From a virus, in IMG/VR virus record IMGVR_UViG_3300025383_001347, positions 1 through 31,843 of that record: a DNA stretch of 31,843 nucleotides, one strand, 5' to 3'. The translations under genes and the position numbers were made by a program. Below are positions 2,754 to 31,535 of this stretch, in pieces (position 1 is the first letter of the stretch; the number at the start of each line of letters is the position of its first letter). The notes under the pieces are model-generated. The model saw only the letters and a program-made list of their open reading frames with translations, searched no databases and had not been told where the DNA came from.

Positions 2754-2823
2754 TGGACACGTAGGGAATCGAACCCTTTCACTCTGATTGCAAATCAGGT
2801 GGTCTGCCATTGACATCCGGCCC
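2754..2823 (-). tRNA. tRNA-Ala (TGC)
   Basis: On the minus strand the stem CCTGA/TCAGA closes loop TTTGCAA, giving anticodon TGC. The acceptor strands GGGCCGG and CGTGTCC have mismatches at 5-68 and 6-67 but keep G3-U70, the alanine identity pair, and A73. The D arm GTC...GAC is short and one extra base precedes the anticodon stem. It is the first tRNA of the array in the direction of transcription. Confidence 0.75.
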
Positions 2824-16493: not shown

Positions 16494-16937
16494 CTAATAA
16501 ATAATTTCAAATAAATACGTATTATTTTTATTTAATTTATCTAACGGGTATTTTCCCAACAACTCTTTTCCTTTAATTGCTTGCGGTGATGTGAATGAAC
16601 CACGAGTTGTCATTATCCACTCATTTTCATAATTAAAAAGAATACCTAATGATCCGTCCATCTTTTCATAGACAACATAATCTTCATTTGGAATATCTTC
16701 TGGTTTATGTTCTTCGTAATTAAAAAATTTGGGAAAACTTCGTGCTTTAATATTACCGTCAAAGTCAGTTACTAAACCACGGCACATCATTAACAATGGG
16801 GTCCAAAGTTTTTCATACTGCACAAGTGGCGAATAATTCCATATTATCAAAGGATACGTTGGGTGAAATTGTTTATGTAATAAACCTTTTTCATACATTT
16901 CATTAAGAATCCCGATATCTAATTTCTCATTTTCCAT
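16494..16937 (-). CDS. rnlA: RNA ligase (T4 Rnl1-like), N-terminal half of a split gene
   Basis: A 147-residue protein with the N-terminal ligase motifs. Motif I is YEKMDGSLG with nucleotidyl-acceptor K92. Upstream are CRGLVTDFDG and FPKFFNYEE, as in Rnl1, and RGSFTSPQA corresponds to the motif III region. It ends with motif IIIa, YLFEIIY, then TAG. In T4 the chain continues FEFVAPTNRIV; here the next residues restart in the C-terminal fragment as (GG)QNRIV, so the break is exact to about one residue. After TAG the codons ATT TAT CCA repeat the I-Y end and supply the expected Pro, a short duplication scar. The start overlaps the LAGLIDADG gene by 19 bp. In T4, Rnl1 reseals tRNA cut by host anticodon nucleases. 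Confidence 0.82.
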   Translation of the reverse strand: MENEKLDIGILNEMYEKGLLHKQFHPTYPLIIWNYSPLVQYEKLWTPLLMMCRGLVTDFDGNIKARSFPKFFNYEEHKPEDIPNEDYVVYEKMDGSLGILFNYENEWIMTTRGSFTSPQAIKGKELLGKYPLDKLNKNNTYLFEIIY

Positions 16938-17704
16938 GTGTATATTGTTTTATATGGTATATCATATTCATTGGATAAAGTTATAACTTTTTCCCCACCT
17001 TTTAATTTTTCTATTATTATATCTTTTACGTTATAATATTTTTTATATTTTTTACCGTAATCATTATTATCAATAAATTTATTAAAATTATATAACTTAT
17101 AATGATTAAAACAAATGTCATCATATAAATAAAAACCAAAATCTACAGCTTTTTTTCCATAAAATCTTAATTCATTAAGATTTTTACATTGTTTTACTTT
17201 TCTAATATTTCCTTTAATTGGTATTAAATTGTTTAAATCCTCAATAAATTCCTTTGTCCCAACTAAATTAATTGTTAAATAAAAAACACCATTACCATTA
17301 TTGTATGTACCAATGGATCCATCACCATCAATATACCCTTGTAAAAAATACTTTAATTCGTTTTTATTTAATTTTGGTAATTTATATGTTAATGTTTTAT
17401 TTGGTTTAATATTATATTGTTCTAATATTTTTACAATTTTTTTATCTGTTATAGTAATGGTATTGGAATTATTATATTTAGTAATTTTATGGTTTGATTT
17501 TATTTTGTTTAAAATATTTTTTAATAATTTAAACCCCTCTTCTCCACTTTGAGATAATGATATTGTTCTATCGTTTTTAACATTACCATCAGAAGCCATT
17601 AAACCTAAAAAATAAAAAAATTCCTTTTCTTTTTTTTCAAAAAAACTAAAATCATATGAATAGATTTGACTAATCTGACCATTTTTTTTTCTTGTATTTA
17701 TCAT
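16919..17704 (-). CDS. LAGLIDADG homing endonuclease
   Basis: A 261-residue double-motif LAGLIDADG protein starting MINTRKKNG at 17704. The longer frame begins inside its promoter-like box. The two catalytic helices read FLGLMASDGNV (first Asp) and LQGYIDGDGSIG (second Asp). The space between them, about 100 residues, holds TISLSQSGEEGF and TITDKKIVKIL strands and helices, as expected for the DNA-binding saddle. The end, LSNEYDIPYKTIYTWKMR, looks like an added helix-turn-helix. It is free-standing and its 3' end overlaps the start of the ligase N-terminal half, so it lies beside the same target gene that the GIY-YIG enzyme splits. Confidence 0.92.
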   Translation of the reverse strand: MINTRKKNGQISQIYSYDFSFFEKKEKEFFYFLGLMASDGNVKNDRTISLSQSGEEGFKLLKNILNKIKSNHKITKYNNSNTITITDKKIVKILEQYNIKPNKTLTYKLPKLNKNELKYFLQGYIDGDGSIGTYNNGNGVFYLTINLVGTKEFIEDLNNLIPIKGNIRKVKQCKNLNELRFYGKKAVDFGFYLYDDICFNHYKLYNFNKFIDNNDYGKKYKKYYNVKDIIIEKLKGGEKVITLSNEYDIPYKTIYTWKMRN

Positions 17705-17707
17705 AAT

Positions 17708-17715
17708 AATAAATA
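17708..17715 (-). promoter_or_regulatory. TATTTATT variant box before the LAGLIDADG gene
   Basis: Minus strand TATTTATT-ATT-ATG, the same arrangement as before the bS21 gene (TATTTATT-AGT-ATG). Confidence 0.4.
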
Positions 17716-17740
17716 TTTTCAAAATTGAAAAAAAATAACA

Positions 17741-26405: not shown

Positions 26406-28193
26406 ATGAATAGTAAAATAGAACAGTTAAAAGAGTTGGCTCGTATTATGAAAGATACGCCATACGCTTTAAGAACATACCTTCAGACATATGATAATAC
26501 ACAGAAGAAATATGTTCCAATGGATTTGTTTGAAGACCAAGTACAACTTATCCAAGATTACGAAAATTACAACGAAAATATCACAAGAAAATACAGACAA
26601 GCGGGGGTTACTACTGTAACTGCAGCTTGGTTATCTAAAAAATTACAATTAGCTAAACCTGAGAATCCTGAAAGAGTATTGCTTATCGCGAATAAGCGTG
26701 ATACTGCGGTGGAAATGGCTAATAAGATTAGAAACTTTTTAGATCAATGGCCTGAATGGATTAATGTAGGATTTTCAGCAGATAAGAACTCAGAAAGTAG
26801 ATTTAGACTTAATAATGGTTGTGAGGTTAAAGCCGTCGCAACATCACCCGATGCATTACGTGGTTATACACCAACAATACTTGTATTTGACGAGGCTGCA
26901 CACATCGAAGCTGGAGAAGATTTCTGGTCAGCATCTATGGCGTCATTATCAACGGGAGGTAAAATTATATTAATATCAACACCTAATGGCTATGATCCGA
27001 TTTATTATGCGGTATATGATCAAGCAATCAGAGGGTTGAATGATTTTCATATTACAGATTTAAGATGGTTTAAAGATCCTCGTTATACAAAAGATTTACG
27101 TTGGGTAAAATGTCAAGACATTTGTCATTATATGTTGAATAGAGAGCAATATAACGATGATGAAGTTGTGTTACATGATTTTGACATCAAAGAATATAAC
27201 AAATTATTGGAGGATGGTTATAAACCATTTTCATCGTGGTTTGAATCAATGTCTAAGAAATTCAAATATGATAGACGTAAGATTGCTCAAGAGTTGGAAT
27301 GTGACTTTTTGGGTTCAGGAGACGGTGTAATTCCTGGTGATGTTCAAGAGAACATTGCAAAAAATATGATACGTGTACCCATTGAAAAATATATGCAAGG
27401 TACAATGTGGCAATGGAAAGAACCAGTACAAGGACATCGATACATTATGGGTGTAGATGTGAGTAGAGGTGATAGTGAAGATTTCTCATCAATTAATATT
27501 GTTGATTTCGATGATAGAGAACAAGTGGTTGAGTATATTGGTAAAATACCACCAGATGATTTAGCTGCAATCGCGTATAAGTGGGGTATTCTTTACAACG
27601 CATTTATTGTGATAGATATAACAGGAGGTATGGGTGTTGCAACATCAAGAAAGTTGCAAGAAATGAATTATAAAAACTTATACATAGATGGTATTAATGT
27701 TCAAAACAAATGGGAATATAATGCCAAAGCAATGGAAAAAATTCCGGGTATCAATTTTAACAATAAACGAACACAAATCGTAGCTGCTTTCGAAGAACAA
27801 TTAAGAAAAGAATTTATAGTGCGTTCAAATAGATTATTGAATGAATTGAATACGTTTGTTTACATCAATGGTCGTCCTGATCATATGAAAGGTGCTCACG
27901 ATGATGCAATTATGAGTTTATCTATGGCTTTATATGCTGCAGACATTTGTTTCAATCAATTGGAAAGAAACGAAGCCGCAAGTAAAGCGATGATGAATTC
28001 TTGGGTAATGACGGAAAGAACATATGAAACAGAAAAAACATTTTATTCTTATGGCACTAGTTTGGATATGGTTGGTTCAATGACAATGGACCCAAGTTTC
28101 TATCATAGAGATAATCCATTGAAAATGGGTGAACAAGCTTATAAAGAACATTCTTGGTTGTTTGGTAACCCTAATAAAGGTTTAAAAAGATAA
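26406..28193 (+). CDS. terL: terminase large subunit (TerL)
   Basis: A 595-residue DNA-packaging motor of T4 gp17 type. The ATPase half has the Walker A-like RQAGVTT (64-70), atypical as in many TerL, Walker B ILVFDEAAH (158-166) and the coupling segment LISTPNG (189-195). The nuclease half has VDVSRGD (D351), VIDITGG (D404) and AHDDAIMS (D499/D500), the three acidic positions of the RNase H-like fold. Length matches gp17 (610 residues). It cuts concatemeric DNA and drives it into the prohead through the portal, which follows 38 nt downstream. A terminator and a TATTTATA box precede it, so it begins its own late unit. Confidence 0.95.
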   Translation: MNSKIEQLKELARIMKDTPYALRTYLQTYDNTQKKYVPMDLFEDQVQLIQDYENYNENITRKYRQAGVTTVTAAWLSKKLQLAKPENPERVLLIANKRDTAVEMANKIRNFLDQWPEWINVGFSADKNSESRFRLNNGCEVKAVATSPDALRGYTPTILVFDEAAHIEAGEDFWSASMASLSTGGKIILISTPNGYDPIYYAVYDQAIRGLNDFHITDLRWFKDPRYTKDLRWVKCQDICHYMLNREQYNDDEVVLHDFDIKEYNKLLEDGYKPFSSWFESMSKKFKYDRRKIAQELECDFLGSGDGVIPGDVQENIAKNMIRVPIEKYMQGTMWQWKEPVQGHRYIMGVDVSRGDSEDFSSINIVDFDDREQVVEYIGKIPPDDLAAIAYKWGILYNAFIVIDITGGMGVATSRKLQEMNYKNLYIDGINVQNKWEYNAKAMEKIPGINFNNKRTQIVAAFEEQLRKEFIVRSNRLLNELNTFVYINGRPDHMKGAHDDAIMSLSMALYAADICFNQLERNEAASKAMMNSWVMTERTYETEKTFYSYGTSLDMVGSMTMDPSFYHRDNPLKMGEQAYKEHSWLFGNPNKGLKR

Positions 28194-28231: not shown

Positions 28232-30067
28232 ATGGCTAATCAGAATCAAGATATAACTGTATTTCAGAAGTTAACCAGAATGTTTGGTTTTCCAGGTCAA
28301 AAAAGACCTCAACCACAACAAACTATTAATTTTAGTAAAGATGAGTTATTAAAAACGGATAGTAGAGAAGAATATGAAAAAGCAATGTTGCAAGCGCAAC
28401 AAAGCCAATACATTGCAGATAAATGGACAAAACTTGACCAATCTTTATACAATCAATCGGTTTATTATGAACCAAATAGATTATCAGCATATTATGATTA
28501 TGAATCTATGGAATTTACACCAGAGATTTCTGCAGCATTAGACATATATGGTGAGGAATCTACAACAATGTCAGAAAAAGGTGAAATCCTTACAATATTT
28601 TCAGAATCAGATAGAGTAAAAGATATCCTTAATGATTTATTCAATAATGTATTGGATGTAAATACCAATTTACAAATGTGGGCAAGAGGTATGTGTAAGT
28701 ATGGTGATGATTTTGTTTATTTAAAAATTGACCCTGAAAAAGGTATCATTGGTTGTCAACAACTACCGAATATTGAAATAGAAAGAATTGAAGGCGCAGC
28801 ATCTAAAACTCCAAATCAAAGAGATATAAAGGTACCTACAAGAGAATTAAGATTTACTTGGAAAAATAAAGATTTAGAATTCCAATCTTGGGAAGTTGCT
28901 CACTTCAGATTATTAGGTGACGATAGAAAATTACCTTATGGTACATCAATGCTTGACAAGGTAAGAAGAATATGGAAACAATTATTACTTGCTGAGGATG
29001 CTATGTTAATCTATAGAACATCAAGAGCTCCTGAAAGACGTATTTTTAAAATATTTGTGGGTAATATGGATGATAAAGATATTGAACCATATGTACAACG
29101 TGTGGCCAATAAATTTAAAAGACAAGCTGTATCAGATCCAACAAATGGTAATGTTGATATGAGATATAATCAAATGTCTGTAGACCAAGATTATTTCATT
29201 CCTGTTCGTGACCCGGCAGCACCAAGTCCAATTGACACATTACCTGGAGCACAGAATTTAGGTGAAATTGCGGATATTGAATACATCCAAAAAAAGTTAT
29301 TGGCAACACTTAGAATTCCAAAAGCATTTTTAGGTTTTGAAGAAGTGGTTGGTGATGGTAAAAATCTTGCGTTAATGGATATACGTTTTGCAAGAACAAT
29401 TAATAAAATACAAAAATCATTAATTCAAGAACTTAATAAAGTTGCATTAATGCATTTATTCTTATTAGGATTAGAAGATGAATTGAATAATTTCACCTTA
29501 TCTTTAACTAACCCATCAGCACAATCTGATTTATTAAGAATTGAACAATGGAAAGAAAAAATAACTCTTTATAAAGACGCAACTTCTGATCAGTCTCAAC
29601 TTGGTATTTTACCAGTTTCACATACTTGGGCTAAGAAAAATATCCTTGGTTTCAGTGATAGTGAGGTTATACTTGATTTACAACAACAACGTCTTGAAAG
29701 AGCTATAGGTGCTGAATTAACAGCTACGAATACAATCATTAGACGTTCAGGTATATTCGATGATGTTGATGCTAAATATGGTATTCCTGAAGAAGAAAGA
29801 GAAAAATTGGAAGCTAAAGCAAGTACAGCTGCACCAGCAGAAGGGGGAGCATCAGGTGGAGCAGAACCTCCATCGGGCGGAGCTGAACCAACTGCAGGTG
29901 GCGAAGAAGCTGCACCATTAAGCGAAGGTTTAAAAACTAAAAAATCTAAAATATTAGGAATGTTGGGTGACGAAAAAGAAAATTTCAAAGATTTATTTGA
30001 TATGGAAAAGGCTCAACAGAATATTTATGAAATAGAACATAAATTAAACAATCTATTAAACGATTAA
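28232..30067 (+). CDS. portal protein (T4 gp20-like)
   Basis: A 611-residue portal vertex protein. Features that fit the T4 gp20 family are the N-terminal YDYESMEFTPEISAALDIYG, the segment ELRFTWKNKDLEFQSWEVAHF, then LLAEDAMLIYRTSRAPERRI, which leads to the stem and clip region, and DVDMRYNQMSVDQDYFIPV-type sequence (shortened here). RIPKAFLGFEEVVGDGKNLA is also typical. Twelve copies would form the channel through which TerL packs DNA. The C-terminus has a Gly/Ala/Pro/Glu linker (about 530-565) followed by a helix ending HKLNNLLND, an extension beyond the core. It lies 2 nt before the next gene. Confidence 0.93.
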   Translation: MANQNQDITVFQKLTRMFGFPGQKRPQPQQTINFSKDELLKTDSREEYEKAMLQAQQSQYIADKWTKLDQSLYNQSVYYEPNRLSAYYDYESMEFTPEISAALDIYGEESTTMSEKGEILTIFSESDRVKDILNDLFNNVLDVNTNLQMWARGMCKYGDDFVYLKIDPEKGIIGCQQLPNIEIERIEGAASKTPNQRDIKVPTRELRFTWKNKDLEFQSWEVAHFRLLGDDRKLPYGTSMLDKVRRIWKQLLLAEDAMLIYRTSRAPERRIFKIFVGNMDDKDIEPYVQRVANKFKRQAVSDPTNGNVDMRYNQMSVDQDYFIPVRDPAAPSPIDTLPGAQNLGEIADIEYIQKKLLATLRIPKAFLGFEEVVGDGKNLALMDIRFARTINKIQKSLIQELNKVALMHLFLLGLEDELNNFTLSLTNPSAQSDLLRIEQWKEKITLYKDATSDQSQLGILPVSHTWAKKNILGFSDSEVILDLQQQRLERAIGAELTATNTIIRRSGIFDDVDAKYGIPEEEREKLEAKASTAAPAEGGASGGAEPPSGGAEPTAGGEEAAPLSEGLKTKKSKILGMLGDEKENFKDLFDMEKAQQNIYEIEHKLNNLLND

Positions 30068-30069
30068 AA

Positions 30070-30816
30070 ATGAACAAATTCGGTACAATAAAAAACAAAT
30101 TATTAACTAAATTAACTGAATCTTATGCCAATGAAAACAAGGCTGAGATTAAAAATATTTTAACAACAATTAAAGAAAACAAAAGTTTTAAAGAAATGTA
30201 TTTGTTTTATGAAGAAATTGAAAACAAATATATTGAAGATAAAGAAATAGCAAAATTATATGTTGAAGGTTTAAGTACATATTTTGGTGAACCAATAGGA
30301 AATTGGAATGAATTAAATATGTTTTGTGAATCTTTAAAAAGTAAATTAAGTGATATCAAAACTCAACCTAATGAATTATACGAATCTTTAGATGTTTTAT
30401 CTGAAAAAAACTTATTATCAAATATTGAAAAGAAAGTTAAAGCTAAAAAGAAATTAGTTGAACATTTAACAACCAAAAAAGAAATTAAGGAATCAAAAGA
30501 CTCAACGTTAGTTCCTAATGAAACTTTATTAAATGCGGTATTAGCAAACAACTTTAACGTACTATATTCTAACACATTATCTGAATCACAAAAAGAAGAG
30601 TTAAAAAATATTTTATCAATTCCTTACGAAGATTTAATTATTAAAAGTAATGAATTATCGGAATCGATTATTAATCAAGTATCAACACTTATAAGTGAAT
30701 CAAATGACGCGGATTTATCCAACAAATTAAAGGCGGTAAAAGATGAGGTTTCTCAAATGCATCCATCACGATACAATTACTACAGATTGAATGAATTAAA
30801 AAATGGTCTTGATTAA
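30070..30816 (+). CDS. helical late protein between portal and prohead protease, 248 aa
   Basis: A 248-residue helical, charged protein of unknown family. Long Lys/Glu helices dominate (NKLLTKLTESYANENKAEIK; NIEKKVKAKKKLVEHL), with NETLLNAVLANNFNVLYS in the middle and the end MHPSRYNYYRLNELKNGLD. In T4 the genes between portal and protease encode small core proteins, so a prohead core or scaffold role is possible. That is based on order only. Its stop lies within a bidirectional terminator hairpin shared with the opposing bS21 gene (4-bp overlap). Confidence 0.6.
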   Translation: MNKFGTIKNKLLTKLTESYANENKAEIKNILTTIKENKSFKEMYLFYEEIENKYIEDKEIAKLYVEGLSTYFGEPIGNWNELNMFCESLKSKLSDIKTQPNELYESLDVLSEKNLLSNIEKKVKAKKKLVEHLTTKKEIKESKDSTLVPNETLLNAVLANNFNVLYSNTLSESQKEELKNILSIPYEDLIIKSNELSESIINQVSTLISESNDADLSNKLKAVKDEVSQMHPSRYNYYRLNELKNGLD

Positions 30817-30835
30817 TCGAGACCATTTCTTTTTT
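30802..30835. terminator. bidirectional terminator spanning two convergent stop codons
   Basis: AATGGTCTTGATT and AATCGAGACCATT form a 13-bp stem (one T-G) at 30802-30827. TTTCTTTTTT follows on the plus strand and TTTTTT on the minus strand. Both stop codons (30814-30816 plus, 30813-30815 minus) lie inside the hairpin. Confidence 0.8.
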
Positions 30836-31004
30836 GTTGTACGTAGACCGCTTTTAACCTTTCCGTTCTTTTTTTAACTGAAGGTTTTACAAATACTTGT
30901 CGGTCCCTCAATTGTTGAACTTGCTTAGTTTTTTGAACTTTATTTTTATAAGTTCTCAATGCAGTTTCAATACTTTTTTCTTTTGTAACATCAATAATAA
31001 TCAT
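30813..31004 (-). CDS. rpsU: ribosomal protein bS21 homologue, phage-encoded
   Basis: A 63-residue protein starting MIIIDVTKEK at 31004. An upstream ATG would add MNIFIS and overlap the promoter-like box. It matches bacterial bS21 over its full length: an N-terminal strand, the helix SIETALRTYKNKVQKTKQVQ, then QLRDRQVFVKPSVKKR and a basic C-terminal helix with KAVYVQQKR. Length and the FVKPSVKKR segment are of flavobacterial type. In Bacteroidetes ribosomes bS21 helps hide the anti-Shine-Dalgarno tail of 16S rRNA, and a Tyr at position 54 has been implicated; Y54 is present here. The phage copy could replace host bS21 and bias translation. It is the only minus-strand gene among the head genes. 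Confidence 0.9.
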   Translation of the reverse strand: MIIIDVTKEKSIETALRTYKNKVQKTKQVQQLRDRQVFVKPSVKKRTERLKAVYVQQKRNGLD

Positions 31005-31007
31005 ACT

Positions 31008-31015
31008 AATAAATA
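31008..31015 (-). promoter_or_regulatory. TATTTATT variant box before the bS21 gene
   Basis: Minus strand TATTTATT-AGT-ATG. No Shine-Dalgarno sequence is seen in the 60 nt upstream, unlike the rpsU genes of many Bacteroidetes. Confidence 0.4.
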
Positions 31016-31109
31016 TATTCACAAATATATAATTATTTTTTGGAATTACAAATAAAATTTCTTATATTTTACGTTACACCATAAAACGTGATTATAATGA
31101 AAAAAATTA

Positions 31110-31535
31110 ATGAAAACAGGTAAATTTATACCCATCGGTACTTACAACGATGTAAAAATCGGTTATGGTACCGTAGATTTCAAAAATCTTAAAACCATTT
31201 ATCTTAAACTAAATTCTTGGTTACAACCAGAAAATGAAACTGAAGATTTCGATGCAATAATTTCCAAGTCAAAAAGAAAAATTAAATCATCGATTCATAA
31301 TTTAAAAAATCCATATTTCAAACAAGAAAATATTGTTGATTTAGATATCAGAACGAAAGGTATTAAATTAGAAAAGAGGTCATTTATGAATTTGGAGATA
31401 ACGCTTTATGTTAACGATAAATTCGATATCAAAACGAAGGAAATTAAAAATTTGATGAAAAATATTATGGAAATCATTATTGAAGATGGTTTATCTGATA
31501 AAATGTTATTTAATTTTTACAAAACAAAAAAATAG
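31110..31535 (+). CDS. hypothetical late protein, 141 aa
   Basis: A 141-residue basic protein of mixed fold: a beta start (KFIPIGTYNDVKIGYGTVDF), a helix and turn, NIVDLDIRTKGIKLEKRSFM with strands, LEITLYVNDKFDIK, and a helix IKNLMKNIMEIIIEDGLS near the end. I recognise no family. Its place between portal and prohead protease, on the plus strand, suggests a head-assembly protein. Start choice: a second ATG 13 nt upstream gives only an 8-codon frame, so 31110 is preferred. Confidence 0.65.
   Translation: MKTGKFIPIGTYNDVKIGYGTVDFKNLKTIYLKLNSWLQPENETEDFDAIISKSKRKIKSSIHNLKNPYFKQENIVDLDIRTKGIKLEKRSFMNLEITLYVNDKFDIKTKEIKNLMKNIMEIIIEDGLSDKMLFNFYKTKK

Follow-up and report, generated by a model that had tools for sequence, protein, structure and literature searches.

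Why do phages often carry a gene for the ribosomal protein bS21, and is such a gene controlled as the host copy is? We examined this question at one locus of a 31,843-base viral record, the whole stretch of DNA that was analysed and is here called the window, which carries T4-type portal and terminase genes and seven tRNA genes called by ARAGORN. On its minus strand, positions 30813-31004 hold an ORF with an ATG start and 63 codons plus a stop, which a preliminary description made from the sequence had read as a Bacteroidetes-type bS21 with Tyr54 that keeps the flavobacterial length and the motif FVKPSVKKR. This identification was borne out. The ORF scored 47.9 bits against Ribosomal_S21 of Pfam (PF01165; cut-off 27, E 1.1e-12) and 34.7 bits against TIGR00030 of NCBIfam (curated cut-off 28.95), and matched the PHROG ‘ribosomal protein S21’ (E 2.9e-7). 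The best two PDB chains were the bS21 of 9i5v and 7jil (E ~2e-11), the latter from F. johnsoniae (PMC9723584). FVKPSVKKR is present, residue 54 is Tyr by count, and the 63 aa of the protein compare with 63-66 aa for most host copies. A pooled pN/pS of 0.19 over codons 1-59 among 66 unique related ORF sequences argues that this is not a chance ORF. Residue 54, which stacks on A1534 in F. johnsoniae bS21, is Tyr in 50, His in two and Phe in one of the 53 unique phage-clade proteins, and hence of aromatic type in 53/53. Together with the relatives (loci L002-L081), these matches identify the gene, on sequence grounds, as a genuine Bacteroidota-type bS21 whose product would be expected to enter ribosomes.

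Contrary to what the preliminary description implied, a phage bS21 with Tyr54 is not new, since it was reported by Chen et al. 2022 together with its locus and the idea of substitution (PMC9723584). In freshwater Bacteroidetes myophages these authors found bS21 encoded on the reverse strand in a neighbourhood of terminase, portal and prohead protease genes, with Tyr54 in 54 of 61 proteins and other aromatic residues in seven, described high levels of phage bS21 transcripts late in infection, and proposed that the phage protein substitutes in ribosomes (PMC9723584). By gene order the window resembles their bS21 jumbo myophages (clades a-e), which have the same locus layout with two hypothetical flanking genes; low GC, tRNAs, Clp-like and chaperone genes and Tyr54 are also held in common, and the gene itself is no different from the bS21 of the window. 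The main text of that paper makes no mention of promoter, terminator, leaderless, autoregul- or rpsU, and no published test of the Shine–Dalgarno (SD) status, promoters or terminators of phage bS21 was found in the literature searched. To the extent of that search, what is new here is the SD comparison, the boxes in the leader, the terminator-encoded C-terminus, the occurrence of the neighbouring gene without bS21, and the limit that SD avoidance places on selectivity through the anti-SD. The bS21 of pelagiphage HTVC008M is likewise phage-borne but of alphaproteobacterial type; pelagiphage bS21 enters E. coli 70S ribosomes, which retain ~5% of wild-type activity (Mizuno et al. 2019, PMC6375957), so that replacement of the host protein is not necessarily harmless.

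In the window and its relatives the bS21 gene lies on the opposite strand between the portal side and the prohead-protease side, with one hypothetical gene on each side. The T4-type portal protein (28232-30067, plus strand; PF07230, E 6.5e-77) and the terminase large subunit (26406-28193, plus strand; PF03237, E 3.4e-11) were assigned by profile, and the protease ORF, which is cut by the window end, was recognised by its likeness to L141 and L415. The convergent ‘-1’ gene (30070-30816, plus strand; 248 aa, ending in KNGLD) had no match in Pfam or PHROG. The divergent neighbour, ‘CN’ (31110-31535, plus strand; 141 aa), has a confidently predicted fold (pLDDT 87.8, pTM 0.83) that gave no functional lead, with no PDB match at or below 0.001 (best E 5e-3); the viral library gave a single match, to an uncharacterised Myoviridae protein (E 5.6e-11), and the phage records gave none. 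The bS21_CN of Chen et al. is an opposite-strand neighbour, a description that fits both bS21 neighbours here (PMC9723584). Elsewhere in the window, an eighth tRNA-like match (2754-2823, minus strand) lies barely over the Rfam threshold and was not called by ARAGORN, and a LAGLIDADG-type homing endonuclease-like ORF adjoins an apparent piece of an RNA ligase gene (16919-17722 and 16494-16937, minus strand; by eye).

Relatives were collected from IMG/VR with the bS21 protein (the best 80 of 149 kept) and with the divergent neighbour (60 related loci). Two further scans reached other lineages, some of which encode a markedly different bS21 at this locus, and 30 of the 97 loci of the wider scan, which the KP[ST] motif had missed, were taken into the later wider set. 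The divergent neighbour lies on the opposite strand in 134 of 137 bS21 rows (136 loci and the window, contigs from both scans being counted twice). Its role as a required partner of bS21 is not supported: within the stretches analysed, L138, L139 and L141 carry the neighbour while the gap holds no bS21 (a further locus, L092, is truncated at the contig end), and the neighbour can hence exist here without bS21. The 50,697 phage records yielded only four matches, all to uncultured huge-phage records at 47-52% identity. A tree of host and phage bS21, a check that the preliminary description had proposed, separated the hosts from the main phage branch, to which 38 of the 44 viral-collection rows belong, with an SH-aLRT of 99; the alignment has 64 columns for 114 rows, and the deep split alone was used. 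V_L300 sits among SD-less host paralogs with weak inner support. The viral-collection match most like F. johnsoniae bS21, L224, had the look of a recent capture that had lost its SD, but the genes around it (by eye, for recombinase-like and HPF-like proteins) show host chromosome next to a prophage, and it was set aside as phage evidence; this host gene is still counted among the 32 other viral-collection leaders, the tree rows and the wider rows. L317 and L318 look like other families. In a different phage lineage, represented by L313 and three identical loci, bS21 starts shortly after the 3' end of an apparent tRNA gene.

The host counterpart provides the comparison on which our reading turns. 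The rpsU of F. johnsoniae is preceded by an extended SD, its autoregulation works through ribosomes devoid of bS21, and Y54A derepresses it; ribosomes of this species that lack bS21, or carry a C-terminally cut form, favour rpsU and initiate poorly on SD-less mRNA (McNutt et al. 2023, PMC9976891). For each start, the 22 nt from -24 to -3 were paired with the 16S tail ACCUCCUUUCU and the SD duplex was scored; two of the four host genomes tested contain this tail. The host set comprised 60 genomes of the family around a Flavobacterium, all with bS21; L403 was skipped and L408 gave no match among 89 host loci, leaving 59 of 60 genomes counted. An extended SD (<= -13 kcal/mol) preceded the strongest rpsU copy in 54 of these 59 Flavobacteriaceae-level genomes, a choice of copy that favours the hosts, and 54 of 87 host genes still reached -13 when all were counted. 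None of the 53 unique phage-clade leaders reached even -9 kcal/mol, let alone -13. Of the other viral-collection leaders, one in 32 was at or below -9 (L225, with a partial SD-like GAGAGGA at -9.7, the sole such leader in the viral collection) and none was at -13. Flavobacteriaceae rpsU and the phage gene thus belong to the same family, are similar in length and share Tyr54, whereas the extended SD and autoregulation of rpsU are matched in the phage gene by neither an SD nor a host-like leader. This comparison of sequences suggests that the phage bS21 gene lies outside the host SD feedback loop. In a wider Bacteroidota set only 31 of 80 loci were at or below -13, so the contrast is limited to hosts that have the SD loop. 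Additional bS21 copies (a second and in some cases a third) scored over the cut-off in 26 of the 60 Flavobacteriaceae-level genomes (loci L350-L407).

Absence of SDs extended to the phage messages in general, as the preliminary description had claimed. No gene of the window had a duplex at or below -9 kcal/mol (31 genes, best -8.8). Duplexes of -5 or below preceded 22 of 346 genes in a 335,630-base relative, versus 66 in the mock window, and 15 of 299 genes in a 286,785-base relative, versus 56; SD-like duplexes are hence 3-4 times rarer than in the mock window, and none of -13 was found in the genes of either relative. The window by itself gave 5 versus 5 in the mock among 34 genes, which is no difference in a sample too small to show depletion. 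Flavobacteriales messages are SD-poor too (PMC9976891), and by this sequence measure the phages avoid SDs as Flavobacteriales genes do. Because phage and host messages are both SD-poor, hiding of the anti-SD cannot alone favour phage over host mRNA, and would instead keep ribosomes fit for phage and host messages alike. The earlier suggestion that bS21 exchange could tune ribosomes toward phage messages accordingly draws no support from the SD logic.

Two promoter-like boxes occupy the short leader of the phage gene. The first, TATATTTG (31022-31029, minus strand), starts 25 nt before the ATG and has the form TA..TTTG, which we take to be the host-type (sigma-A-type) -7 box of Bacteroidota. 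Of 53 unique leaders, 40 have this form with its start between -27 and -24 relative to the ATG, where shuffling gives a mean of 0.17; counted by cluster, the figures are 10 of 19 and 0.09. In host rpsU it is found mostly at -36 to -47, with the SD between box and start. A TTG at 31049-31051 (minus strand), separated from the -7 box by a 19-nt spacer, is a candidate -33 element that many relatives do not keep: the spacer differs in length, and in 20 of the 40 cases the 60 nt contain no TTG ahead of the box. The second box, TATTTATT (31008-31015, minus strand), starts 11 nt before the ATG and is a variant of the putative late-type box TATTTATA. Of the 53 unique leaders, 50 contain the pattern TA[TAC]TTAT (17 of 19 clusters), and 44 have it between -14 and -9; shuffling of the 53 leaders gives means of 7.2 (anywhere) and 1.9 (-14 to -9). 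Among 54 host leaders it occurs in one.

The late-type box is widespread in these phages. We counted TATTTATA in two large relatives, G002 (L409-L425) and G004 (L430-L444). In the larger, G002, 54 of 107 occurrences fall in the 40 nt upstream of a gene start, most often at -12, compared with 2 in an 80-nt mock window and 5 in reverse orientation; in the second, 45 of 110 precede starts in two clusters (-24 to -18 and -13 to -10), with 12 in reverse. The same octamer precedes six genes of the window, including the terminase, where it starts 13 nt before the ATG just past a terminator-like site, and the portal, where it starts 11 nt before the ATG. The large relatives show the octamer and its orientation bias before starts, with no -35 seen. 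The PHROGs among late-box genes (TerL, head protease, tail fibre and endonuclease; 20 scanned of 53) and host-type-box genes (a Clp ATPase and a ClpP/head-protease-like protein; 10 scanned of 27) are too few to establish timing, and a search for a late sigma factor through a guessed family (phrog_244) identified none and was uninformative. T4 late promoters have the consensus TATAAATA with the geometry of a -10 box, and they are likewise lone, -10-like, AT-rich octamers without a conserved -35, in a T4-type phage. Their sequence differs, and the box here reads TATTTATA on the coding strand, often right before the start codon. By this analogy TATTTATA is a candidate phage late promoter: were it to act as the T4 late -10 box does, many late transcripts would begin on or beside the AUG, leaving these mRNAs with little or no leader. 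The earlier remark that some phage genes may be leaderless gains indirect support from the position of the octamer just before starts in the large relatives, while the transcript starts themselves are predictions from the box. Nothing relevant to such a box was found in the literature searched; phage transcripts are described as often leaderless, though not in the phage studied there (PMC5312081).

At the other end of the gene, a pattern scan found a 12-bp palindromic hairpin with a T run (30801-30828), a candidate intrinsic terminator shared by the convergent genes. It spans the ends of bS21 and the convergent gene, folds on the minus strand at -14 kcal/mol (z -5.5), and encodes the C-terminal NGL of both proteins, which end in NGLD in the window. 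Across the 55 unique 3' regions of the main set, the two proteins always terminate in NGL, with at most one further residue (55/55). All 55 write the Leu of NGL as CTT or CTC, codons used for 23 of the 213 other Leu residues of these genes. Each of the seven stem pairs examined is intact in 55/55; one is T-A in 25 and A-T in 30, and another is C-G once. Synonymous divergence is 0.113 at the C-terminal hairpin codons versus 0.426 in codons 1-59. Five checked loci in which bS21 does not overlap the hairpin (L241, L242, L246, L247 and L287) have no NGL end. Less clean are L237 (DGLND opposite EGLN), L300 (EDS opposite NSLS, with a weaker hairpin) and L312 (KNS, with no clear hairpin). By eye, a hairpin followed by a T run is kept at the end of the convergent gene in L139 and L141, two of the loci whose gap is free of bS21. 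Codon choice, covariation and the non-overlapping loci without NGL indicate that the conserved tripeptide is better explained by a terminator in the DNA, although a role in the protein may also exist. Caution is warranted for the conserved C-terminus of phage bS21, which has been taken to matter for ribosome substitution.

From the sequence, the leader, the promoter- and terminator-like anatomy and the host comparison, we infer ribosome incorporation, use of the boxes and repression of host rpsU, and the best explanation, to which we give about an even chance, is a deregulated bS21 substitute that keeps ribosomes bS21-replete for SD-less phage messages and turns down host rpsU. The phage protein would replace the host protein on 30S subunits during infection and, with Tyr54 kept, should hide the anti-SD. 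In Flavobacteriaceae, rpsU usually has an extended SD and is most efficiently translated on bS21-free ribosomes, so that bS21 limits its own synthesis. The phage gene, with no SD and a short AU-rich leader bearing a late-type and usually a host-type box, should be translated by bS21-replete ribosomes, and its output should not fall as bS21 accumulates. Phage bS21 would then keep ribosomes competent for SD-less phage messages, and by filling bS21-free ribosomes would turn host rpsU down through the host's own loop, a loop that McNutt et al. suggested might serve as counter-defence (PMC9976891). Of the earlier proposals, the one in best agreement with this is that the phage copy would sustain anti-SD hiding under a shortage of host bS21, since the phage gene is free of the SD feedback that acts on the host copy. 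Many Bacteroidota have no SD at rpsU (31 of 80 at or below -13), and the loop may be absent in the true host.

Other readings share part of this evidence. The phage copy could simply top up a loosely bound, limiting protein, with SD loss neutral and host rpsU unaffected. Almost all phage genes are SD-less, so loss of the SD from this one may indeed be neutral, and the extra bS21 copies of hosts, most of which cluster in the tree (SH-aLRT 99), are SD-less also (0 of 28 at or below -9), which counts against the argument from SD loss. Against plain supply, which we regard as fairly unlikely, the constancy of the leader and of the late-type box position points to a tuned leader, although this says nothing about host rpsU. 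Less probable again is the proposal of Chen et al. that bS21, through an N-terminal part peculiar to the phages, biases ribosomes toward phage mRNAs. The phage branch does stand apart from host bS21 (SH-aLRT 99), and these authors place the divergence in the N-terminal helix, near the mRNA (PMC9723584), but phage and host leaders are both SD-poor, so that anti-SD hiding does not discriminate between them, and leaderless late messages would offer no upstream mRNA for bS21 to read. A non-ribosomal or virion role, such as RNA binding or particle packaging, is very improbable: the gene lies among head genes and packaging in the virion was raised by Chen et al. (PMC9723584), but the aromatic residue 54 is kept and purifying selection over the bS21 body is strong.

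A deregulated substitute also admits a stronger form, which we put forward tentatively as possible but somewhat doubtful. Here the phage would take over the host bS21 feedback: its SD-free, Tyr54-bearing bS21 would saturate ribosomes, shut off host rpsU and become the main form late in infection, when many phage messages would start at or next to the AUG and could thus do without any contacts to a leader. If this is true, translation control in these phages would lie in a deregulated supply of bS21 combined with leaderless mRNA, and not in recognition of mRNA by bS21. Comparison with the host loop makes the question of why phages often carry bS21 approachable by a reporter experiment in a tractable bacterium.
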